From: an uncultured Paracoccaceae bacterium
GTDB taxonomy: Bacteria > Pseudomonadota > Alphaproteobacteria > Rhodobacterales > Rhodobacteraceae
NCBI GenBank assembly: GCA_947492585.1
Contig: CANLND010000022.1
Span: 1-54,945, forward strand
Direction of reading: 5' to 3'
DNA length: 54,945 nt
Shown here one piece after another: positions 31,343 through 42,418 of this stretch. The notes beneath the pieces are model-generated. The model was not told the origin of the DNA. It searched no databases and worked only from the letters and a program-made list of their open reading frames with translations. Position numbers and translations under genes: made by a program. Each line of letters starts with the position of its first letter. Position 1 is the stretch's first letter.

Positions 31343-31766
31343 AATTGGGCGGATCCGTGATTGCGAGCGGGAGGGCATGCTGCAAAAGCATGTCACGCCT
31401 CGGCAGAAGCGGCTCCATTAGCATCTGTTGCGGCAAATGTATATGCTTGGATGCCACAGTAGAGATATATTTCGTCGGGTGACTGGCTGCCATGTGTTGC
31501 TGGCATGGCTGCGCATTGTGAACCCTATGTGCCTCCTTACATGCGATGATTGTTTTGACGGGAGCGATGCACGTGAATTGCGTGCTCCACGCAGGGATCA
31601 CCACATCGGTTTAATGCGCTTAGTGTTTCTTAACGGGTGCGCGTTAAGGTTGCAGCCACTGAAAGCTCCGTCTTTGGGAGGAGGAGGCATTTATGTGCGG
31701 TATGGCGGATGGTTTGTTTGATATGACAATCTTGGTGTGTGGTTCTCACCCGTCAGGGCATCACGT
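31343..31766. promoter_or_regulatory. 424-bp region between divergent helicase and histidine kinase genes; dyad at 31630-31647
   Basis: No supported gene is seen. The region carries promoters in both directions. The clearest element is a perfect dyad TTAACG-N6-CGTTAA (31630-31647), about 120 bases before the histidine kinase start. It shares TTAA half-sites with CtrA boxes, but the spacing between them is 10 rather than 7, so CtrA cannot be claimed. A GGGAGGAGGAGG-like purine stretch at about 31675-31687 resembles a ribosome site but precedes no convincing frame. Confidence 0.4.
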
Positions 31767-33254
31767 ATGATTGGTGCGCTAAAATCTTTACGTCATGATC
31801 GACTTAGTTTGCGGTTGGTGTTCGCCTCACTGATCATCGGCGGAGTCTTATCCGTTTTTTCGACGGGCGCGCAGGTCTATTCCAGTTTTAACCGGCAGAA
31901 ACAGGATCTGACATATGTGTTAGATCAGATCGAACAAACCATGGTGCCGTCCTTGCGATACGCGTTATGGCAGCTTGATTTTGGTCAGGTCGAAACCATC
32001 CTAGCGGGTTTGATAACCTCTGAAATTGTCACCTACATCGATTTGACCAGCCCCACCGGTCACCGCTGGACCCATGGAGAACCGGCGCATGCGCCTGTGT
32101 CGCGTGTGTATGCTTTGACCGAAGCCCAGCCCGACGGCGAGGTTTTGGAGATTGGGACCATGAAGGTGGAGCTGTCGCTCGAAACCGTGAAAAAACTGGT
32201 GTGGGCCCAGTTTTGGATCCTCCTGATTTCCAATGTCGCAAAAGCCTATATCGCAGCCTTGGCTCTACTATTGGTTGTTCATCGTATGATCATCCGACAT
32301 CTGGTGCAAATTTCTGAATACGTTTCGGACGCAAATCCTTTGGCAACACGTGGCGCGTTGTGTTTGAACCGCTGCGCCCCGGATACTCCGGATGCGTTAG
32401 ACCGCATTTGCGCGTCGCTTGAAGGGTATCGTGCGCGGGTGTCGGGACACGTCGCTGAACTTGAAACTGAAATCGCCACCCGGCAAGAGGCTGAACGCGT
32501 CGCGAAACGTGCCGACAAGGCGCGGACATCGTTTCTGGCGAACATGAGCCATGAGATCCGCGAGCCCTTGAATTCGATTCTGGGCTTGTTCCATCTCATA
32601 AAAGAAGGCGAAGCTGTCCCCGCACCACATCGCCAACAAGCGTCGGTTGGCCACAAGGCGGCGCAGCGTCTTCTGGGGCAGTTTGTGAATATTCTGGATT
32701 TGTCCCGGCTTGATTCCGGCGGTATTCAGGTCTCGTTGAAGCCAACCAATATTCGTGTGTTGGCGCACCAATGGCTGGAAGCCGCGCAGGGTATGGTTCA
32801 TCGGCGCAATAAACCGTTGCAGGTGTTTTTGGAGATCGATCCGACCGTACCACAGATTTACGATCTGGACGGTGCTCGGTTAACGCAGATAGTGAACAAT
32901 CTGACTGACAATGCGAGCAAATTCACCGACACCGGGCAGATACAGATCAAGATTATGCCTGGCGGCACAGATGAATATGGTCAGACCACAGGGCTAGTGG
33001 TGTTGGTCTCGGATACGGGCGCTGGCGTCAGCTATGAGCATCAGGATTACATTTTTGAGCGCTTCACACAGATCGATGCCCATTCACAAGATGTGCAAAA
33101 CGACGGGACTGGGCTAGGACTGGCAGTGAGCCGCGATTTGGCGCAGTTGATGCAGGGTACTCTTACTGTGCAGCGCAGCCCATCGGGTGATTATTCAACT
33201 GAGTTCCGCCTAACCTTGGAAAATGTTTACAGCCGTGTACCTGCGGAAGTCTAA
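31767..33254 (+). CDS. Membrane-bound sensor histidine kinase, orphan
   Basis: A 495-residue kinase. A transmembrane helix at about 15-38, a periplasmic domain of about 105 residues, and a second helix at about 145-172 lead to a coiled-coil-like linker (AELETEIATRQEAERVAKRA). The HisKA box has the phospho-acceptor His262 (FLANMSHEIREPLNSI). The ATPase domain shows the N box NNLTDNASKFTD, G1 DTGAGV, F box FERFTQID and G2 GTGLGLAVS, so it should be active. There is no receiver domain and no adjacent response regulator. The ATG at 31767 is preferred; a GTG 10 codons upstream is possible. It precedes the kinase-dynamin operon by 341 bases and could feed it. Confidence 0.88.
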   Translation: MIGALKSLRHDRLSLRLVFASLIIGGVLSVFSTGAQVYSSFNRQKQDLTYVLDQIEQTMVPSLRYALWQLDFGQVETILAGLITSEIVTYIDLTSPTGHRWTHGEPAHAPVSRVYALTEAQPDGEVLEIGTMKVELSLETVKKLVWAQFWILLISNVAKAYIAALALLLVVHRMIIRHLVQISEYVSDANPLATRGALCLNRCAPDTPDALDRICASLEGYRARVSGHVAELETEIATRQEAERVAKRADKARTSFLANMSHEIREPLNSILGLFHLIKEGEAVPAPHRQQASVGHKAAQRLLGQFVNILDLSRLDSGGIQVSLKPTNIRVLAHQWLEAAQGMVHRRNKPLQVFLEIDPTVPQIYDLDGARLTQIVNNLTDNASKFTDTGQIQIKIMPGGTDEYGQTTGLVVLVSDTGAGVSYEHQDYIFERFTQIDAHSQDVQNDGTGLGLAVSRDLAQLMQGTLTVQRSPSGDYSTEFRLTLENVYSRVPAEV

Positions 33255-33595
33255 TTTTCGCGTCCGTTGCTGTGGTGATGTCTGTTCCGTGGCGAATCAA
33301 GGCTGCGTGTCTCTCGGCGACCGTTCAGGCCGACGACACCAAGGTGTGGTGACCAACGTTGGTTTTGAAATTTTATCGTATTTGCTTGAAATAGAACAAT
33401 TTTACCAAAAGTGACGAGAGATCTTTAAGAATTGTAAGCGCCTTATTTGAAGGGGAATTTTGGGGATTGTGTTGGAAATGGGGCGAGAGTGCCTTGATTG
33501 CCTAAATCCCAACGCATTTTTGCCGCGCCGCAATCTCAGCGTAAAAGAGCGCACATGTCCCGTTTGGGGTGCGCCCGAGCTATGAGGATGGCACC
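33255..33595 (+). promoter_or_regulatory. 341-bp leader of the kinase-dynamin operon with two dyads
   Basis: No gene is seen. Two compact palindromes lie together: ACACC-AA-GGTGT (33336-33347) and the perfect 12-mer ACCAACGTTGGT (33352-33363). They are 233-260 bases before the protein kinase start. An AT-rich stretch (about 33363-33480) follows and probably contains the promoter, though no strong -35/-10 pair stands out. The dyads are candidate operators. Confidence 0.4.
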
Positions 33596-34978
33596 GTGCT
33601 GCATCAAACCAGTCGATCTGCAACTGTAGAACAACAAGAATTACCCACTGGGCACAGTCTGTTGCAGGGGCAGTACCAGATCGAAAAACAACTGATCGCG
33701 GGGGGGTTTGGGGTCACGTATCTTGCACGTGACAGCCTGGACCGGCAGGTGGTGCTGAAAGAGTGCTTTCCCGCAGGATTTTGCCATCGCGACGGGACCA
33801 ACGTCAGCGCGCACACACCGCGTCAAAGTAAGTCGTTCCGAAATATCCTGCGTCATTTCTTGCGAGAGGCGCAATGGTTGGCGCGGGCCCAGCATCAAAA
33901 TATTGTGGCTGTGCATCAGGTGTTTAAAGAAAACAACACCGCTTATATCGCAATGGAATTTATCGACGGGTGCGACCTGTATGAATTGCGCCTAGAGCAG
34001 CCTTCGCGTGTCTCGCCATCCCTGTTGAACACGATAACATGGCAAGCGTTACAAGCACTTGGTGCGGTGCATGCCTTGGGTATTTTGCACCGGGATGTTT
34101 CACCTGATAACTTCTTAATTTCGCCGTCAGACAAACTGACCTTGATCGACTTTGGCGCAGCCTGTGGTGAAGATCCCACCGAAGATACGGCGCTGTCAGC
34201 GCTGTTGGCCGTCAAAGATGGGTATTCCGCGCATGAGCTTTATCAGCCGAATACGCCCCAGCGCCCGACCAGCGATATTTATGCGTTGGGGGCAACGCTG
34301 TATTTTTTGGTGACCGCCGAGGCACCGCCCAACAGTGTGATCCGATTGAAGGCAGTAACCGCCGGTGAACCTGACCCTTATGCCCTACTGGTCGACGGCG
34401 ATTGGCCGTATGACCGGACATTTTTGGCGACAATCGACAAGGCGCTGTCGATATTACCCGGCGCGCGCTATCAAAGCGCAGACGAATGGTTTGCTGTACT
34501 TCCGGACGTGCCTCTGGATTTCCCTTGCGCGCATAGTTCATCGCAGTCTTCCGAAGCCCCCCTGCCGTCTGAAACGGTGGCAGCTGAACCCGACGATGCG
34601 TTGATGTATTCGATTGCGGATCTGGTGTCTCAAACGAATAAAGCCCTAAGGGGAACACCTGCAATACAGCGTCGTCATCGCGCACCGAAACAGGAAGAAA
34701 CGTTGGATGTTCCTGAGCAACTTGTTGATATTTTTGGAAATCCCGTTTCCGACATCGACAGCTGGCTGGACGAGCAGGATCGTATCGCACGCGCGACGCC
34801 CTCTCCGGTGCCTCTTGGGCCATCGCCACAACCACAAAGGCAGCTGCGCCCCAAAACTGCTGTGACCCCTCTCGCGGACGTCACAGATGTACCTCTCACG
34901 ATGTCGCAAAAATTGCTCTCGTTTTTAGGGTGGGACGCATCGCAGGCCAGATCTGAACGCTATGGGGATTGGACATGA
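33596..34978 (+). CDS. Serine/threonine protein kinase (Hanks type), cytosolic
   Basis: A 460-residue protein. The kinase domain spans about 25-285: glycine-rich loop IAGGFGVTYLA (34-44), ATP-binding Lys55 (VVLKECFP), catalytic HRDVSPDN (Asp167) and DFG at 185-187 (LIDFGAACG), then the DIYALGATLYFL helix. The key residues are intact, so it should phosphorylate Ser/Thr. The C-terminal 170 residues are acidic and Pro-rich with no transmembrane helix or PASTA repeats, unlike PknB. The GTG at 33596 has GAGGA 7 bases upstream; a GTG 9 codons earlier is the alternative. Its stop overlaps the FHA gene start (ATGA), so product and reader are co-translated. Confidence 0.93.
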   Translation: MLHQTSRSATVEQQELPTGHSLLQGQYQIEKQLIAGGFGVTYLARDSLDRQVVLKECFPAGFCHRDGTNVSAHTPRQSKSFRNILRHFLREAQWLARAQHQNIVAVHQVFKENNTAYIAMEFIDGCDLYELRLEQPSRVSPSLLNTITWQALQALGAVHALGILHRDVSPDNFLISPSDKLTLIDFGAACGEDPTEDTALSALLAVKDGYSAHELYQPNTPQRPTSDIYALGATLYFLVTAEAPPNSVIRLKAVTAGEPDPYALLVDGDWPYDRTFLATIDKALSILPGARYQSADEWFAVLPDVPLDFPCAHSSSQSSEAPLPSETVAAEPDDALMYSIADLVSQTNKALRGTPAIQRRHRAPKQEETLDVPEQLVDIFGNPVSDIDSWLDEQDRIARATPSPVPLGPSPQPQRQLRPKTAVTPLADVTDVPLTMSQKLLSFLGWDASQARSERYGDWT

Positions 34979-36156
34979 AATTCATCAAAGACATCATTGG
35001 CGAAAAACGGGAGCAGGTGGAACTGCACCGGGCAGAGGCGAGCGGGACCGAAGCGGACGCGCTGAAAAAGGTATTGGCGCAAACGCGGGGGCACGCGGCA
35101 CCATTGCATTTGAATGCGCAACTGAGAGTGCCGCAAGAGGGGCCTTCACAGCCCGAAATTGTTGAGGATGAGGGGCCCGAGCTGGCGGACACCACCCGGC
35201 GGTCGGTGACGCCTGATATGCACGAAAAAGCTGCAAAGGCGCAGGACGTGGTGGCCCAGTTTATTGCGCAGCACAAGGCCGGTATCGAAACCCCTGATAC
35301 TGACAACACCGTTGCCGCGCCCGAGCCGCCAAAGGTGCCTGAGCCCGTTGCGATTGATCCTGATACAGAGCACGAGCGTACGCGGAGAGTTTTTTCCCGT
35401 CGTCGACCTACTGAGCTTTTGCCCGAGCCATCGGTGAAGGCCTCTGTTCTCACCTCAGACACAGACGTATTGGAGCGCAATGCGCCCCGTCAACACGAGG
35501 ATGCGGCTCCCGTAAGTGCGAAGCCTGACCACGCCGAAGTCGGGTTTCGCTCAGATGCTGCATTTCCTGAACCGGTGCATTCGGAGTTTGTGGAACAGGA
35601 TGCCGCGGTTGCCCCCGAGACGGAGCAGAATGTGGAGGCTTCAGAACCTGCGCCGATGATCGGACGCGCAGCGGGGCGGGCCGGAAGGGTCAAAACGCGT
35701 TTGCTTGGTTTTGATCCTGAGCAGTTGTCAGATGATCCTTTGAAGCAGGATCAATCTGACAGCTCAGCACAGATGAGCACCTTTCCCGTCGGCTGGCTTG
35801 CTGTCGTTGACGGCCCCGGACGAGGAGCGACATTTACGCTGTTCAGCGGTGTTTCGGCCATTGGGCGAGGCGCACAGCAAACGGTGCGGTTGGATTTTGG
35901 TGACAACAGTATTTCGCGCGAAAATCACGCGGCGGTGGCGTACGACGCGGAGCAACAGGCATTTTTTATTGGGCACGGAGGCAAGGCCAATTTGGTGCGG
36001 CGTAATGGTCGGCCCGTATTGTGTACCGAAACGCTCACTACGGGTGATCTGATCCGCGTCGGAGAAACCACGCTGCGGTTTGTGCCATTGTGTGGAGAGG
36101 GGTTTGATTGGCACGCCAAGACCACCGAATTTGGGCAGGAGTCCAGCCTTGGCTAA
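34975..36156 (+). CDS. FHA domain protein
   Basis: A 393-residue protein. The first 250 residues are charged, Pro/Glu-rich and probably disordered, beginning with a short helix (KFIKDIIGEKREQVELHRAE). The C-terminal FHA domain (about 275-385) has the GRG and SxxH core (SAIGRG, ISRENHAAV) that binds phosphothreonine. FHA proteins next to Ser/Thr kinases usually recognise the kinase or its substrates, and the disordered part has many Thr residues that could be targets. The ATG at 34975 overlaps the kinase stop by 4 bases. Its own end overlaps the PP2C start by 8 bases. Confidence 0.92.
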   Translation: MKFIKDIIGEKREQVELHRAEASGTEADALKKVLAQTRGHAAPLHLNAQLRVPQEGPSQPEIVEDEGPELADTTRRSVTPDMHEKAAKAQDVVAQFIAQHKAGIETPDTDNTVAAPEPPKVPEPVAIDPDTEHERTRRVFSRRRPTELLPEPSVKASVLTSDTDVLERNAPRQHEDAAPVSAKPDHAEVGFRSDAAFPEPVHSEFVEQDAAVAPETEQNVEASEPAPMIGRAAGRAGRVKTRLLGFDPEQLSDDPLKQDQSDSSAQMSTFPVGWLAVVDGPGRGATFTLFSGVSAIGRGAQQTVRLDFGDNSISRENHAAVAYDAEQQAFFIGHGGKANLVRRNGRPVLCTETLTTGDLIRVGETTLRFVPLCGEGFDWHAKTTEFGQESSLG

Positions 36157-37081
36157 ATTTTCCTATGACAGCGCGACGGCGATCAGCCAGGGGTGCCGGG
36201 ACCGTCAAGAGGATGCAATCGCCGCGGATTTTCAGGCCGGTTTTCCGTTTGGTTTTGCGGTTCTGGCGGATGGTATGGGCGGTCACGCCGCCGGAGATGT
36301 CGCCAGTAAGGTGATTGTAACCGAAGTCTTTGCAGAGCTGAAGTTACACGCAGCCGACATTGCGGCAGATCAGGGCCAGATCGGCACGGTGTTGCAACGC
36401 GCCGCTGCGGGGGCCAATGCCTGTCTGGCGGACTATACCGCCACGCGCCCCAAGGTCACGGGGATGGGGGCAACCTTACTGGCTCCGGTTATCTTGGAGG
36501 ATCGCCTTTATTGGATTTCGGTCGGAGATTCACCTCTTTTTCTGTTTCGTGACGGGCAGTTACATCGGCTGAATGAGGAACATTCGGTTGCCGCGCAGTT
36601 GGATCAAATGGTGGCGCGCGGTAAAATTTCAGAAATGCAGGCGCAAAGCCACCCGGACAGGCACTGCGTGACGTCCGTGCTTACTGGGCGCAGCTTGGGG
36701 CAGGTGGATTGCCCGGGCCACCCTGTGACGCTGCGAGCAGGGGATATTGTCCTGGCGGCCAGCGATGGGGTGCAATCGCTGGCGACAGCGGATCTGGCAG
36801 AGGTTCTGCGCGCTGGGCATGCTTTGCCAAGTGCCGTTCTGGCGCAACGGGTGTTGGACCGCGTGTTGCAGCAGAACGCACCAGAGCAGGACAACCTTTC
36901 GTTTTGTGTCGTTCGAATTGTGCCCAGCGCGATCGTGGCCCAGTCGTGCGCTGCACCATCCCCGCAGGTAGCGGGCCACGGCGGGCAGCGGCCGCGCATG
37001 CGGCGTCTGACATTCGCCGCCACGGCCCATCGACGTGAGGGCCAACTTGTTTTTGAAACCCTGACCCGGAGCGCGCCGTGA
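36149..37081 (+). CDS. PP2C-family Ser/Thr protein phosphatase
   Basis: A 310-residue metal-dependent phosphatase that should reverse the neighbouring kinase. PP2C motifs are in order: GCRDRQEDA (about 15-23), LADGMGGHAAGDVAS, TGMGATLLAP, WISVGDSPLF, LAASDGVQSL and QDNLSFCVV, which supply the Asp residues for two metal ions. The last 60 residues are a less ordered tail. The start is a TTG at 36149 with an AGGAG 7 bases upstream; it gives the usual PP2C beginning (AKFSYDSATAISQG), while an earlier ATG would add about 23 unrelated residues. The downstream GTPase gene begins inside its stop codon. Confidence 0.92.
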   Translation: MAKFSYDSATAISQGCRDRQEDAIAADFQAGFPFGFAVLADGMGGHAAGDVASKVIVTEVFAELKLHAADIAADQGQIGTVLQRAAAGANACLADYTATRPKVTGMGATLLAPVILEDRLYWISVGDSPLFLFRDGQLHRLNEEHSVAAQLDQMVARGKISEMQAQSHPDRHCVTSVLTGRSLGQVDCPGHPVTLRAGDIVLAASDGVQSLATADLAEVLRAGHALPSAVLAQRVLDRVLQQNAPEQDNLSFCVVRIVPSAIVAQSCAAPSPQVAGHGGQRPRMRRLTFAATAHRREGQLVFETLTRSAP

Positions 37082-38322
37082 CCCAAGTACACTCTCATTC
37101 GCCACCGTTGGATGTCACATTAGAACAAGCCTTACAGGCGCCGGGCATCCCACAGGAATTGGACGCACGCGCACGGCGGGTGCTGGAGCGGTTGCGCACG
37201 CCTGTTCGGGTTGTGGTCTTAGGGCCAGAAAGGTCGGGAAAGTCTGCCCTGATTGATATGCTGCTGGAGCAGACAATATTGGGGCAGCAGCCCAAAATCC
37301 CGATCATTGAACTTTGCTTTGGGGACACGGCAACGGTTGGGGTCGAAGATCATGATGGCCGCATCACAACGCTCCCGGGCCATCTGGTCGATTTTGATAT
37401 CACGCGTGACATCCTGAGCGTGCAGCAGCAGCTACCCTTGGAGTTCCTACGCGATCAGACGGTGACGGAAATCACCGTCGACGGAAGTGCAACGCAAAAA
37501 CAGGCGATCCTGCGGTATGCGGCGGACTATGCAGACGTATTGATTTGGTGCAGCAGCACCTTTAATCCCGCCGAACAGGCGCTCTGGGCACAGGTTCCTG
37601 ATGCCCGTAAAGACAATAGTTTTCTTGCACTTACCCTAGCGGATCAAACCGTAAATCAGGCGGCGTTGCCCAAGGTTTTGGAACGCGTGGCGCCGGTGGC
37701 CCAGCACGAGTTTTTGGGGATCTATCCTGTGTCTGCCTTGCAGGAAGTTCCGGCGCAAGGTGCCACACACGAGACAGGCCTTTGGCGCAGCAGTGGGGGG
37801 CAGCAATTGCGTGCGGATCTTTTGCAGCAGCTTCGCACCGGGCGTATGGCGGACGCCGATCACGCAGAATGGATGCTTCGGCAGCTGACCTTGGCGGCAT
37901 CAGTGCCGGGAACAGCGTTGCGCGCTCCGGCGGGAAGGGCAGCAGACGATCCCCCCAGCGCGACGGAGGATAAACCAGAGGCCAAGGGGCAGGGTGATAC
38001 TGTGCTCAATCGTGCCCTGTCTCAACTACAGTCGCGTGCGCAGGATATGTTGGCGGAGGCAGGGGATCTGGATCCCCAAAGCGAGGCTGTGTTGGCGCAG
38101 TGTTTGGAGGCCGCGCGTGAAATGACCTCAACTTTGATGGCCGCGGGTGGCACGTGCCCGGAGTTGAACGCGGCACAGGAGGTCGTTGAAGAGGGGGAGG
38201 AGATGTTGATGCTGTTACAACTGGAACAAAACGATGAGGCGGCGTTGGATGCCGTAACTGTTTTGTTGCAGCTAAAAAAGGAAATGACGCAACCCCCGCT
38301 CATGTCTGAGAGGGCTGAATGA
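37078..38322 (+). CDS. P-loop GTPase-like protein with degenerate motifs
   Basis: A 414-residue protein. A P-loop is clear at 49-56 (GPERSGKS). The G3 position reads VDGS rather than DxxG, after strand ITEIT, and the G4 position reads TLADQ rather than NKxD, so nucleotide specificity and hydrolysis are uncertain. The roughly 250-residue G-like domain is followed by an Ala-, Gln- and Glu-rich helical C-terminal half (about 295-405) that looks like coiled coil. The GTG start overlaps the PP2C stop (GTGA) and its own stop overlaps the dynamin gene (ATGA). It may form a heteromer with the two other GTPases. I do not recognise a named family beyond dynamin-related. Confidence 0.8.
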   Translation: MTQVHSHSPPLDVTLEQALQAPGIPQELDARARRVLERLRTPVRVVVLGPERSGKSALIDMLLEQTILGQQPKIPIIELCFGDTATVGVEDHDGRITTLPGHLVDFDITRDILSVQQQLPLEFLRDQTVTEITVDGSATQKQAILRYAADYADVLIWCSSTFNPAEQALWAQVPDARKDNSFLALTLADQTVNQAALPKVLERVAPVAQHEFLGIYPVSALQEVPAQGATHETGLWRSSGGQQLRADLLQQLRTGRMADADHAEWMLRQLTLAASVPGTALRAPAGRAADDPPSATEDKPEAKGQGDTVLNRALSQLQSRAQDMLAEAGDLDPQSEAVLAQCLEAAREMTSTLMAAGGTCPELNAAQEVVEEGEEMLMLLQLEQNDEAALDAVTVLLQLKKEMTQPPLMSERAE

Positions 38323-40421
38323 ACGTTGCCATCCCTGTCCCGCCGCCTAACGATAGCGATGATGCCGCAACCCGTATCCGTGCAACAGCATTGCCAACCA
38401 ATCTGTCCGCGGGGTTTGCGCCGCTGGCGCAGTTTGCGGAACGCAAACAGGACATCTCGCGGGCACTGGTGCAACTGGAACAGGCTGCGGGCCCCCATGT
38501 CGCGCGTGCCTTGATCCGCTTAAAGCGCGATATGGACATGTTTGAACCGTCAGTGACTGTTTTGGGGCAGGTCAAATCCGGCAAAACATCGTTGGTGAAC
38601 GCTTTGGCGGGGTGGTCAGATCTGTTGCCCTGTGACGTAAACCCATGGACGTCAGTTGTGACCTCGTTGCACCTAAAACCGGGACGCGCGCGCGGTGAAA
38701 CGGCGGCGCGGTTTCAGTTTATGTCGGAGCGCGAATGGGATCGGTTGCTGGTCAAAGGCGGGCGCATTGGCGAAATGGCGGGCCGGGCTGGCGCCGAAGG
38801 AGAGCTGCAACAAATCCGCAGTCAGATCGAGGCCATGCGAGATCGTTCGAAACAACGACTGGGGCGCAAATTTGAGCTGTTGATGGGGCAGGTGCATGAC
38901 TATGGGTATTTTGATAAGAACCTGATTGAACGCTATATTTGCCTTGGTGATGATCTTACGCTTGATGCTCCGATTGGTCAGGATCAGGGACGTTTTGCCG
39001 ACATCACGCGCGCGGCGGATTTGTCATTGAACAGTGAAGTGATCCCGCATGCCCTGTGCTTGCGCGATACGCCGGGGGTAAACGACACCTTTATGATGCG
39101 TGAACAGATAACCATTCAGGCGATCCGGGGCAGCGGTCTTTGTGTGGTGGTCTTGTCGGCCGGGCAGGCGCTCACGTCGGTTGATCTTAGTCTGATCCGC
39201 ATGTTGGCCACGCTCGACAGTCGTGAAGTGGTGATTTTTGTCAATCGGATTGATGAGCTGGCCGATCCGTCACGTCAGGTGCCGGAGATTGAAACCGCCA
39301 TTCGTGAAACCCTGCGTACGCACCACGGGCCGCAAGAGGCCGAGATCCTGTTTGGCAGCGCCTTTTGGGCCAATGCTGCATTGACGGGAGACGTCGAAAC
39401 ACTGCCCCCTGCCAGTGCGGCGGCATTGTTGAACTGGGCCAAGGCGCCGTGCAACGCGCCGCAGCTGTCTCAGGCGAACCCAACTGGCGCGGCGCAGGAT
39501 CTGGTGTGGTCGTTGTCGGGAATGCCCGCCCTTAATCAGGTGCTGTCAGAACGGACAGTCGCCCGAGGCGGCGCGGCGTTGCTAAAACGTGTTGCAGCAT
39601 CAGCATTGGCAGCGGCATCTGGGCTGGAGGCCAGTCTTGGCATTTCTGTGGGCGCGGGCAAAAACAGCGCGGATCCGGCCAGGTCCGTGACAGGCGCGGC
39701 AGACCTTATGACGGCGTTTCTTCAACTGAAGACTGATCAAATGCGCGCGTTCGAACAGGAAATCGAAACGGTTCAACAGGCGTTTCGAGAGCGTGCAGAG
39801 CGAACACACGCCACGTTTTTGGACCGTGCAACGCAGGCCCTGATTACGCACCTCGAACGCAACGGTGATCAGGTCGCGTGGAAATATGATCCAACCGGAT
39901 TGCGGGTGCTACTGCGCACAGCCTATTCCGTGATGTCCAGTAGACTGCACACCGCCGCAGAGGCCCGGCACACTGCGGCAGTCCACGAGGTGGCCAAATT
40001 ATTGTTTGATCACTTCGGACAACAGGTTCAGGGGGTCCAGTTGGGGGTGCCGCAGGTCGCGGATATCACGCCTCCTGTGGCCTTGGGGCAGACGCTAGCG
40101 CTGGATTTTCAAGATGGGTGGTGGGCCAACTGGTGGCGTCGCACGCGCGGGTACGATGCTTTTGCCGATACATTTCGGGCTTTGATAGACGCCGAAACCG
40201 AAGATTTCATGCAGCAGGTCAAAAAACAGCAATTGGCCGACCTCAAAGCTGACTTTTTACAGCGACTGCAAGGATTTTTTGACGAAATGGGAGATATCCT
40301 GAAGGAAATGTCCAGCGCCCACGAAGGAGAGCTTCGCGCGCGATTGACGGACAGCGAAACCCACGCGCGCACAACGGCCATTCACACCGCGATGGAAAGC
40401 CTGCGCAACTATGTCGCCTGA
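38319..40421 (+). CDS. Dynamin-like large GTPase
   Basis: A 700-residue protein. GTPase motifs are intact: G1 GQVKSGKTS (83-91), G3 DTPG (250-253) and G4 NRID (309-312). A long insertion with charged helices (about 140-215) lies between G1 and G3. The C-terminal 250 residues are helical and carry a Trp/Arg-rich hydrophobic patch (DGWWANWWRRTRGYDAFAD, about 597-616), like the membrane-inserting tip of bacterial dynamin-like proteins, then a coiled-coil stretch to the end. No true transmembrane span is seen. It likely binds and remodels membranes on GTP hydrolysis, which is family knowledge and inference. The ATG start overlaps the preceding stop. Confidence 0.88.
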   Translation: MNVAIPVPPPNDSDDAATRIRATALPTNLSAGFAPLAQFAERKQDISRALVQLEQAAGPHVARALIRLKRDMDMFEPSVTVLGQVKSGKTSLVNALAGWSDLLPCDVNPWTSVVTSLHLKPGRARGETAARFQFMSEREWDRLLVKGGRIGEMAGRAGAEGELQQIRSQIEAMRDRSKQRLGRKFELLMGQVHDYGYFDKNLIERYICLGDDLTLDAPIGQDQGRFADITRAADLSLNSEVIPHALCLRDTPGVNDTFMMREQITIQAIRGSGLCVVVLSAGQALTSVDLSLIRMLATLDSREVVIFVNRIDELADPSRQVPEIETAIRETLRTHHGPQEAEILFGSAFWANAALTGDVETLPPASAAALLNWAKAPCNAPQLSQANPTGAAQDLVWSLSGMPALNQVLSERTVARGGAALLKRVAASALAAASGLEASLGISVGAGKNSADPARSVTGAADLMTAFLQLKTDQMRAFEQEIETVQQAFRERAERTHATFLDRATQALITHLERNGDQVAWKYDPTGLRVLLRTAYSVMSSRLHTAAEARHTAAVHEVAKLLFDHFGQQVQGVQLGVPQVADITPPVALGQTLALDFQDGWWANWWRRTRGYDAFADTFRALIDAETEDFMQQVKKQQLADLKADFLQRLQGFFDEMGDILKEMSSAHEGELRARLTDSETHARTTAIHTAMESLRNYVA

Positions 40422-40435
40422 CACAGGAGCTTGTG

Positions 40436-41305
40436 ATGCCAGATACGACCGCCAAATCCCGGAAACCGCGCATCGCTTTGATGGGGGAATTCAGCGCGGG
40501 CAAAAGCACGCTGACCAATCTTTTGGTTGGGTTGGAACCCTTGCCCGTCCGGGTGACCGCAACACGTTTGCCGCCTGTCTGGATTTCGCATGGTCCCGCC
40601 GCCGCGGCCCGCGTCGATCTGCGAGGATTGGAAACGCCCATTTCACTTGACGCGATTGATGATGTCCCGCTGGAGGACACTGCGTTTATCCGCCTGTCCC
40701 TCCCGGCCGAGGCACTGGAATTGTGTGATCTCATCGACATGCCTGGAATTTCGGATCCAAACATGCCCGCCGAAGTCTGGAAAGCCTTGCTCCCGGACGT
40801 CGACGGGGTGATCTGGTGCACCTCTGCCACGCAGGCCTGGCGACAATCCGAGGCTGCTACATGGAAGAGTATTCGACAGGAAATTCCCGGCCCCAATACC
40901 TTGTTGATCACGCATTTCGACGCGCTGCAAAATGACCGCGATCAGGCGCGTGTGCTGAAACGTGTGGTGCGTGAGGCTGGCGATACCTTTCAGTCTGTTT
41001 TTCCGGTGTCTTTATTGCAGGCCTTGTCTGCGGGAGATGACATGGACGTGTGGAAACGTAGCGGCGCGGACGCCTTTGTTGAAAACTTGATCGAACTTTT
41101 GGTGCGGTGGTCCGCGACGCCTCAAGAAGAGGCCGACGCGCCAGAGGCAATAGCCAGTGTTCTGGCGCGCGAAGCTGCGCGGGACCGTGGACGCAACAAG
41201 GCGCCGCAACCTGACAACCTCCTACAGGGGCGCGTTGTCCCTCGTCGTGTAAAACGAGAGCGGCACAGCGCGCGGCCCGAACGCGCTAGGTTGGATCTGG
41301 GATGA
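40436..41305 (+). CDS. Dynamin-superfamily / Era-like small GTPase
   Basis: A 289-residue protein. G1 GEFSAGKST (17-25) and G3 DMPG (101-104) are clear; the G4 region is ITHFDAL, with THFD instead of NKxD. The Ser-Ala-Gly-Lys-Ser P-loop is typical of dynamin-superfamily GTPases. The C-terminus (about 260-289) is strongly basic (Arg, Lys), a possible membrane or RNA contact. An AGGAG 6 bases before the ATG at 40436 supports this start, 14 bases after the dynamin gene. It overlaps the next gene by 4 bases. Pairing with the larger dynamin is likely, as bacterial dynamin-like proteins are often encoded in tandem. Confidence 0.85.
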   Translation: MPDTTAKSRKPRIALMGEFSAGKSTLTNLLVGLEPLPVRVTATRLPPVWISHGPAAAARVDLRGLETPISLDAIDDVPLEDTAFIRLSLPAEALELCDLIDMPGISDPNMPAEVWKALLPDVDGVIWCTSATQAWRQSEAATWKSIRQEIPGPNTLLITHFDALQNDRDQARVLKRVVREAGDTFQSVFPVSLLQALSAGDDMDVWKRSGADAFVENLIELLVRWSATPQEEADAPEAIASVLAREAARDRGRNKAPQPDNLLQGRVVPRRVKRERHSARPERARLDLG

Positions 41306-41679
41306 CCAACTTTGCCTCGCGTGCAGATCTGGAACAGCAGCTAGGTAAAATCCGCGCCTTGGATCCGGGCTGTCGTCTGGTTGCTTTTGGCGATTTGGGC
41401 TCTCATCTTGTTCTGGCGGCAAGCCATGATCACCCGTGGCCACAAGAGCGGTTGGATGACCTGTGTTTGCAGGCCGCCGAAGGTTTTGCGATGCTTGATC
41501 AGCTGGATGACGCCAACGATTTTTTTGTCACGCTGACGTCGGGCAGCGCGCGGCTGTTTTTGCGCGCGTCTGGCGGCGAACAAGATGCATTGCTGATAGA
41601 AGGTGCGCAGCTGTCGTCTGTTGAACCTATGGTGCCCCAAGCCCGTCTGTTTCTCGCAGCTGCGACCGAGGACGCATGA
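41302..41679 (+). CDS. Small protein with Roadblock/LC7-like predicted topology
   Basis: A 125-residue protein without a recognised sequence signature. The predicted order is helix (5-20), strand (CRLVAFGDLG), strand (HLVLAASHD), long helix (about 48-70), strand (FFVTLTS), strand (ARLFLRAS), strand (DALLIEGA), helix (PQARLFLAAA). That alpha-beta-beta-alpha-beta-beta-beta-alpha pattern and length match Roadblock/LC7 proteins such as MglB, which regulate small GTPases. The assignment is by eye and tentative. The gene overlaps the preceding GTPase gene by 4 bases (ATGA) and ends one base before the next start. Confidence 0.6.
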   Translation: MTNFASRADLEQQLGKIRALDPGCRLVAFGDLGSHLVLAASHDHPWPQERLDDLCLQAAEGFAMLDQLDDANDFFVTLTSGSARLFLRASGGEQDALLIEGAQLSSVEPMVPQARLFLAAATEDA

Positions 41680-41680
41680 T

Positions 41681-42418
41681 ATGGCCAACCGCGCGCGCCC
41701 CGCTTCACAGCCCCACCTGACGGACCATGCGCTTCGCGATGCGCTGCGCCAGCTGGTGGCCGATGAACAGGCGGCGCAGGACGTTTTGGGGAAAATTTTA
41801 ACTGAGATTGAGCAAACAATTCTACCACGCCGTGTGCGCGTATTTACAGACACAACACAAGCATCTGAAGTGTTTTCGCTGTTTGTCTCTCAGCGGCGAT
41901 TGGTGGCCGTTAGACCGGTCCATGGGGAAGGCACTGGGGATCTTCTGGCGCGATTTCTGGCCGCGCTAGCGGGTCTGGGATCTGGGCCTGTTTTCTTGCA
42001 TGCGGAACCGGCGCTCGTGGTTGTAGATTCCGCCAGTTTAACCTCTGTGCACCTTAGAACGGTGATAAACGCGTCTGCCACGCGAGAGGTTTCAGGGTTA
42101 AAGCGGTTTTCCAATGTGATCAAACCTGTGTCTCAGGCTTGGATGTGGTGTGATGCTGACACGGGAGAGCGAGAACAAAAGGGGCACAACTCTGAATTGC
42201 AATCGCTGACGGATATCGCGGCGATACTGGAAACCTCACGCCGGTTTGGGGGAGCGATGATCGGATCTGCGAGACCGGAATGTGTGTTTTTGCCATATTC
42301 GCAGTCGCGGTACGTTGTAGTGGCGCGCGCCGGGTGTGATGTGGTGTTGGCGTTGATTGAGACTGCTCAACGTGCCGAGATTGTCTCGTCGTGGCAGGGA
42401 GAATTTGACCCGCAGTGA
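41681..42418 (+). CDS. Uncharacterised protein, last gene of the kinase-dynamin operon
   Basis: A 245-residue protein I do not recognise. It begins with a Gln/Ala/Leu-rich helical stretch (about 15-50) that could be coiled coil. Next come alternating beta segments (VRVFTD, VFSLFVS, RLVAVRPVHG, PVFLHAEPALVVVD) and a second alpha-beta part near the C-terminus (RPECVFLPYS, YVVVARAGCDVVLALIET). No signal peptide or transmembrane helix is present. The start is the ATG at 41681, one base after the previous stop (TGA-T-ATG). The two mixed alpha-beta halves may be related small-ligand or Roadblock-like folds, but this is speculation. Confidence 0.65.
   Translation: MANRARPASQPHLTDHALRDALRQLVADEQAAQDVLGKILTEIEQTILPRRVRVFTDTTQASEVFSLFVSQRRLVAVRPVHGEGTGDLLARFLAALAGLGSGPVFLHAEPALVVVDSASLTSVHLRTVINASATREVSGLKRFSNVIKPVSQAWMWCDADTGEREQKGHNSELQSLTDIAAILETSRRFGGAMIGSARPECVFLPYSQSRYVVVARAGCDVVLALIETAQRAEIVSSWQGEFDPQ

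Follow-up and report, generated by a model that had tools for sequence, protein, structure and literature searches.

Eight genes at positions 33596-42418 of contig CANLND010000022.1, from an uncultured Paracoccaceae bacterium (assembly GCA_947492585.1), form one conserved operon, a real unit that recurs in many marine Rhodobacterales. The window, meaning the whole stretch of DNA analysed, is 54,945 nucleotides long and is contig C22 of the 83 contigs of the source genome. The operon joins a kinase, an FHA protein and a PP2C phosphatase (the trio) to three dynamin-related GTPases and a Roadblock/LC7 protein, followed by an eighth protein. From this observed anatomy we infer, tentatively and at somewhat less than an even chance, a function: a bacterial dynamin pair at the inner membrane, gated by phosphorylation and regulated by Roadblock proteins.

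A check of open reading frames found eight within the block, all on the plus strand. The genes, with two sites inside them, are:

33596..34978, plus strand: Ser/Thr protein kinase (Hanks type), 460 residues; Pfam Pkinase, 1.8e-28
34975..36156, plus strand: FHA protein, 393 residues, with a long variable tail, a KTRLLGF motif and a C-terminal FHA domain; Pfam FHA, 2e-4, just over the cut-off
35695..35697, plus strand: codon of Thr241 in KTRLLGF, a putative phospho-site; Thr in 76/76 relatives
36149..37081, plus strand: PP2C-type Ser/Thr phosphatase, 310 residues; Pfam PP2C_2, 1.5e-11
37078..38322, plus strand: G1 (gene 4), degenerate GTPase, 414 residues, a paralogue of G3 by hhalign
38319..40421, plus strand: DLP (gene 5), dynamin-like GTPase, 700 residues; Pfam Dynamin_N, 1.6e-11
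40119..40136, plus strand: WWxxWW of DLP, residues 601-606, a putative membrane contact; four Trp in 80/80 relatives
40433..41305, plus strand: G3 (gene 6), second dynamin-family GTPase, 290 residues; Pfam Dynamin_N, 6.3e-10
41302..41679, plus strand: gene 7, Roadblock/LC7 protein by predicted fold, 125 residues
41681..42418, plus strand: gene 8, 245 residues, whose C-terminal half is probably a second Roadblock-type domain

The genes run head to tail with overlaps of 4-8 bases or gaps of at most 14, as an earlier note on this DNA (the initial annotation) had described. The overlap is 8 bases at FHA/PP2C and 4 bases at kinase/FHA, PP2C/G1, G1/DLP and G3/Roadblock. DLP and G3 are 11 bases apart if G3 starts at the GTG at 40433, or 14 if it starts at the ATG at 40436, and a single base separates the Roadblock gene from gene 8 (ATG at 41681). 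The kinase GTG at 33596 has matching starts, judged by eye, in several aligned upstream regions. The identities first given to genes 1 to 6 also stood, on Pfam matches, conserved residues and a profile alignment of G1 with G3.

We searched a named genome collection, which held 495 stretches with a relative of DLP, and examined the best 80. The identical eight genes, in the same order and on a single strand, were present in 66/80, a count that rises to 68/80 with L160, where gene 4 lies in two frames, and L124, where gene 8 is weak. Contig ends interrupted the block in 10/80, and there were two true deviants: in L096 no Roadblock gene could be recognised, and in L158 the same holds for genes 4, 7 and 8. 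The nearest DLP relatives by identity among these best 80 of 495 were from Tritonibacter litoralis (66%) and Epibacterium ulvae (64%). When the longest frames were taken, the median overlap across relatives was 4 bases at PP2C/G1, DLP/G3 and Roadblock/gene 8, and the G1/DLP and G3/Roadblock junctions were looser (medians of 74 and 44.5). The flanking genes vary between genomes. Pairwise distances of the eight proteins correlated at 0.77-0.90 over 66 loci, as expected from joint inheritance; shared descent alone would give the same.

For the family we took 149 genomes, one per genus, and searched up to 20 kb around 40 dynamin sites with profiles of the eight proteins. The dynamin gene occurred in 36/149 genomes, and the trio genes adjoined it in 26/36, the source genome included; two of the 26 (G144 and G098) show the trio in part only, at contig ends. 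No trio was found beside the dynamin gene in 10/36, including G022, which offers a short locus only, and G059, with a weak match (3.2e-5). In a sample of the class, a dynamin match at 1e-20 was obtained in 2/289, both from the same family, and in a sample of the phylum the dynamin profile matched 9/398 at 1e-8, eight from the family and one from another family of the class (the source genome and G399 are in both samples). The initial annotation had asked for an order conserved across Rhodobacterales and beyond. Within Rhodobacterales the homologues are not scattered and co-occur in order (68/80); outside the family the samples gave one dynamin match.

The dynamin gene was also found in 18 plasmid records, 12 from Leisingera, 5 from Ruegeria and 1 from Rhodobacter. 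Four plasmid loci were opened: L076 holds the whole block, L077 a split version, L078 a rearranged one, and L079 dynamin genes without the trio. L076 and L077 belong to one strain, Leisingera sp. S132, which thus has both a standard block and a split version on its plasmids unnamed4 and unnamed5.

DLP keeps the P-loop GK, DTPG and NRxD in 80/80 relatives. Its best solved relatives are chain A of 5owv (2.7e-9) and then Nostoc BDLP, 2j68 (2.2e-8). That of G3 is chain C of 5owv (4e-15). The G3 P-loop is kept in 77/77 relatives and D-x-P-G is invariant in the 22 aligned; the fourth motif is TxxD, not NKxD, and there is little beyond the GTPase domain, and the protein is not long enough for a full trunk. 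According to the available part of PMC6104087, 5owv is the Campylobacter jejuni pair Cj-DLP1/Cj-DLP2, a 2:2 complex that tethers liposomes; the masses stated in that paper agree with the chain lengths of the entry, 732 and 614. Because DLP is matched to chain A and G3 to chain C, the two active GTPases have as their best matches the two members of a single known pair. Their genes are adjacent wherever both were found (78 of the 80 relatives have both). All four Trp of the DLP WWxxWW are invariant, which is only suggestive of a membrane contact.

G1 is a paralogue of G3 (hhalign 99.8%, E 1.7e-28) that has only marginal Pfam matches, the best at 0.035. It retains the P-loop GK in 76/76 relatives and TxxD in 74/76, and the DxxG position is not conserved. 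From these residues, G1 may bind nucleotide, probably without hydrolysing it. Pfam showed no MglA-like gene in the block, the three GTPases all being related to dynamin.

Neither Pfam nor NCBIfam matched genes 7 and 8, PADLOC did so weakly at best (0.068), and a search of PDB sequences with their profiles gave nothing convincing, so their folds were needed. The structure model of gene 7 has the order alpha-beta-beta-alpha-beta-beta-beta-alpha and matches solved Roadblock/LC7 members; by this predicted fold, which is that of MglB, gene 7 is a Roadblock/LC7 protein, in agreement with its first description as Roadblock-like. The C-terminal half of gene 8 is, from its model, probably a second Roadblock-type domain; when the profiles of genes 7 and 8 were compared, no similarity was seen. 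At one locus (L065:5247-7094, minus strand), a single protein fuses a G3-type GTPase (residues 7-283, 105.6 bits) to a Roadblock domain (residues 482-613, 128.2 bits). This locus has no kinase, FHA or PP2C gene.

The trio, proposed as writer, reader and eraser of a phospho-mark, has conserved key residues and does share one conserved operon with the GTPases and the Roadblock protein. The kinase retains the D and F of DFG as well as HRD..SPDN in nearly every relative (74-76 of 76). Hydropathy gave no convincing transmembrane stretch in the window kinase, and a transmembrane-like stretch was seen in 6/31 kinases (L049, L060, L064, L077, L078 and, marginally, L179). Two neighbours in L077 and L078 carry the annotation of substrate-binding-domain proteins, and L064 has one similar neighbour; Pfam matches in these neighbours are to LysM or SBP_bac_3, with only LysM in L077 above the curated cut-off. 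It looks from these sequences as if the kinase variants of L064, L077 and L078 receive periplasmic input.

In the FHA domain, the G-R, S-R and H residues are present in 76/76 relatives, and KTRLLGF stands directly before it. The closest solved sequence to the FHA protein is GarA (E 0.0026). FHA proteins of the GarA/OdhI kind are the basis of the phospho-site analogy, by which Thr241 is a candidate phospho-site. They resemble the block's protein in having an FHA domain preceded by a segment with a conserved Thr, and differ from it in that the latter's tail is long and variable, its Thr motif is another one and its operon encodes no metabolic enzyme. PP2C keeps DGMGG and DN in 77/77 relatives and matches the Stp1 family profile at 1.3e-37, below the cut-off of that profile. 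The residue counts leave out the glycine loop and lysine of the kinase, the GDS of PP2C and the 'DMPG' of G3, whose assigned positions were a few residues off.

A kinase-FHA-PP2C trio is typical of type VI secretion systems, and the host carries such a system on contig C25. The block's trio might therefore be the threonine-phosphorylation switch of a distant type VI system, and TssC was somewhat commoner in genomes with the block (10/26 vs 25/123, Fisher p 0.07), which is not a clear association. In hand-picked sets TssC occurred in 10/24 genomes with the block and 3/24 without. However, 16/26 block genomes had no TssC match, and profiles found a separate kinase (3.5e-18) and PP2C (4.6e-35) on the host's type VI contig, where FHA-like and TagF-like frames were seen by eye. 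In the ten genomes with both, the block and TssC were on separate contigs or more than 150 kb apart, and no type VI secretion gene was found in the block, in agreement with the initial annotation, which saw no secretion gene there. On the TssC distribution in the family sample and the host's own type VI kinase and PP2C, we rejected this explanation as extremely improbable. The type VI switch (PpkA, Fha, PppA) is like the block in having kinase, FHA protein and PP2C together; the block differs in having GTPases and Roadblock proteins instead of secretion genes, with TssC missing in most of its genomes. In the host's type VI locus (G000:C25; L182, L183), a resolvase-like frame and a large one resembling a transposase were seen by eye between its two parts.

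Rearranged loci bear on how the block is built. L061, L062 and L073 have two Roadblock genes near a dynamin pair and no trio. The order in L064 and L078 is DLP-G3-Roadblock-gene 8-second DLP-G1-kinase-FHA-PP2C, and L077 carries its halves on opposite strands. From these six variants, genes 5-8 behave as one module and genes 1-4 as another that is mostly joined to it. The two could even be neighbouring but independent systems, a phospho-switch and a dynamin pair with no functional link, as might be argued from the opposite strands of L077 and from the 10/36 genomes with a pair and no adjoining trio. Against this, order and overlaps are the same in 68/80 relatives despite differing flanks, and the rearranged L064, L077 and L078 still keep both halves together; we regard an unlinked arrangement as very unlikely. 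In L061 (12240-19327) and L073 (5568-15484), a tyrosine-phosphatase-like gene precedes the two Roadblock genes, which are followed by genes for an ABC-type ATPase and for a dynamin-type GTPase; a ferredoxin/FAD/NAD/globin protein and a GFA-like protein come after.

In the window, the block lies between a histidine kinase gene on one side and a tRNA methyltransferase gene on the other. The former, a CHASE5 sensor histidine kinase at 31737-33254, is directly upstream, and its relatives are on the same side in L083-L085. The upstream alignment gave nothing beyond one loose common element, approximately GGCG-n5-GCC and then ATTGCC, at 33420-33600, 5' of the kinase, seen by eye in the window and several relatives.

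We considered whether the operon is a quorum- or two-component-controlled envelope system for vesicle release or surface behaviour, in which the dynamin pair would sever or shed membrane at a given cell density. LeoA has been linked to vesicle release, and the PADLOC LeoA profile matches DLP at 6.9e-13. A response regulator, a histidine kinase and/or LuxI were found, in several arrangements, in 19/80 of the fetched loci, which reach 8 kb to either side of the dynamin match (L087 was left out, as its histidine-kinase match was only 36%). A relative of the histidine kinase was present in 10/26 block genomes vs 12/123 others (Fisher p 8e-4, uncorrected for kinship). The remaining 61/80 loci, however, had none of these genes, the source genome had neither a histidine-kinase relative (at 1e-60) nor LuxI, and shared descent of the neighbourhood could account for the histidine-kinase and LuxI link. 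LuxI was present in 130/149 genomes anyway, and is thus too common to mean much. We judge this reading rather unlikely; a quorum-sensing link is possible as a lead on regulation, outside the block itself.

These arrangements are spread over the dynamin tree. Response regulators, histidine kinases and/or orphan LuxI genes near the block were noted at L042:16412-19900 and in L101, L103, L105-L112, L115, L116, L120-L122, L126, L131, L146 and L151. In roseobacters, orphan luxI genes adjoining histidine kinases are already known, as stated in the available part of PMC3824088.

An anti-phage role, with the kinase as a sensor of infection and the dynamin pair either sealing the membrane or wrecking it, would fit the patchy presence (36/149 genera), the carriage of the dynamin gene on plasmids, the two-module make-up with variants, and the PADLOC matches to the kinase and, with LeoA, to DLP. 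These defence profiles matched singly: LeoA on DLP, LeoBC on G3 (1.3e-4), and mad6 and PD-T4-6 on the kinase, the other members of those systems not having been searched individually. The neighbourhoods, a weak test, speak against it. The 119 neighbouring proteins of 30/80 loci matched four PADLOC profiles 10 times, with mad3 or mad8 accounting for 8 of these (raw counts with no baseline), and there was no integrase or transposase among 25 of the 124 Pfam families in neighbours. By Pfam, 10 of the 119 matched response-regulator and 3 LuxI profiles. The window block has the histidine kinase and tRNA methyltransferase genes as its neighbours, and the dynamin gene was in no phage record. We consider an anti-phage role unlikely. 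Phages as carriers of the gene were rejected, there being no match in phage records.

The reading as a gated dynamin pair is supported by the conserved order, the key residues, the 5owv matches, the gene 7 fold, the L065 fusion, the G1-G3 paralogy and the kinase variants. As we picture it, an envelope or metabolic signal would activate the kinase, which would phosphorylate the FHA protein (Thr241 being the candidate), a GTPase, or both. The FHA domain would read this mark and link the switch to G1, a putative nucleotide-binding, non-hydrolysing partner, a step that would free or recruit the DLP:G3 pair. The Roadblock proteins might set the nucleotide state of the pair as a GTPase-activating protein or scaffold, comparable to MglB acting on MglA. 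DLP:G3 would then assemble on the inner membrane, perhaps through WWxxWW, to tether or remodel it, and PP2C would reset the switch. The use that we guess to be most likely is to maintain or repair the membrane on demand, by analogy with dynamin pairs, whose own repair role is itself a proposal in the available part of PMC6104087. The interpretation in the initial annotation is partly supported: the gene set does form a conserved operon outside type VI loci, and phospho-controlled assembly on a membrane, perhaps for repair, envelope stress or phage defence, is a hypothesis. More broadly, there is a very nearly even chance that the operon represents a bacterial counterpart, in its logic, of signal-controlled membrane remodelling in eukaryotes: Ser/Thr phosphorylation, an FHA adaptor and a pseudo-GTPase would license a heterotypic dynamin pair, two Roadblock-type regulators would set its GTP cycle, and membrane tethering or repair would be turned on and off post-translationally.

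Dynamin pairs in operons were already known, as the available part of PMC6104087 indicates. Like Cj-DLP1/Cj-DLP2, the block has two adjacent dynamin-family GTPase genes; unlike that pair, its G3 is about half the length of Cj-DLP2, and it has additional genes for a kinase, FHA protein, PP2C, degenerate GTPase and Roadblock proteins, in place of which the Cj-DLP operon has a putative HcpA-like beta-lactamase (same part of PMC6104087). The block recalls LeoABC in the LeoA match and in encoding dynamin-like proteins together; it differs in its weak LeoBC match on G3 and in its extra kinase, FHA, PP2C and Roadblock genes. To MglA/MglB it is alike in the MglB fold of gene 7 beside GTPase genes, once fused to a G3-type GTPase, but its GTPases are of the dynamin family and not MglA-like. 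In the literature searched, which covered subscription journals sparsely and preprints not at all, we found no description of a dynamin pair together with kinase-FHA-PP2C, a degenerate GTPase and a Roadblock protein, in line with the initial annotation, which knew of no such gene set. The parts all come from known families, and what appears to be new is their joining in one operon.

To our knowledge, how bacterial dynamins are switched on is largely open, and most have been studied as bare proteins or pairs. The operon makes it testable whether Ser/Thr phosphorylation gates a dynamin. Roadblock proteins are regulators of Ras-like GTPases, and whether they can act on dynamin-family GTPases too becomes testable as well. 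The kinase-FHA-PP2C trio is seen here outside its best-known setting, type VI secretion, and the block occurs in culturable marine bacteria. If our reading is true, this would be the first known dynamin system under both phospho-switch and Roadblock control.

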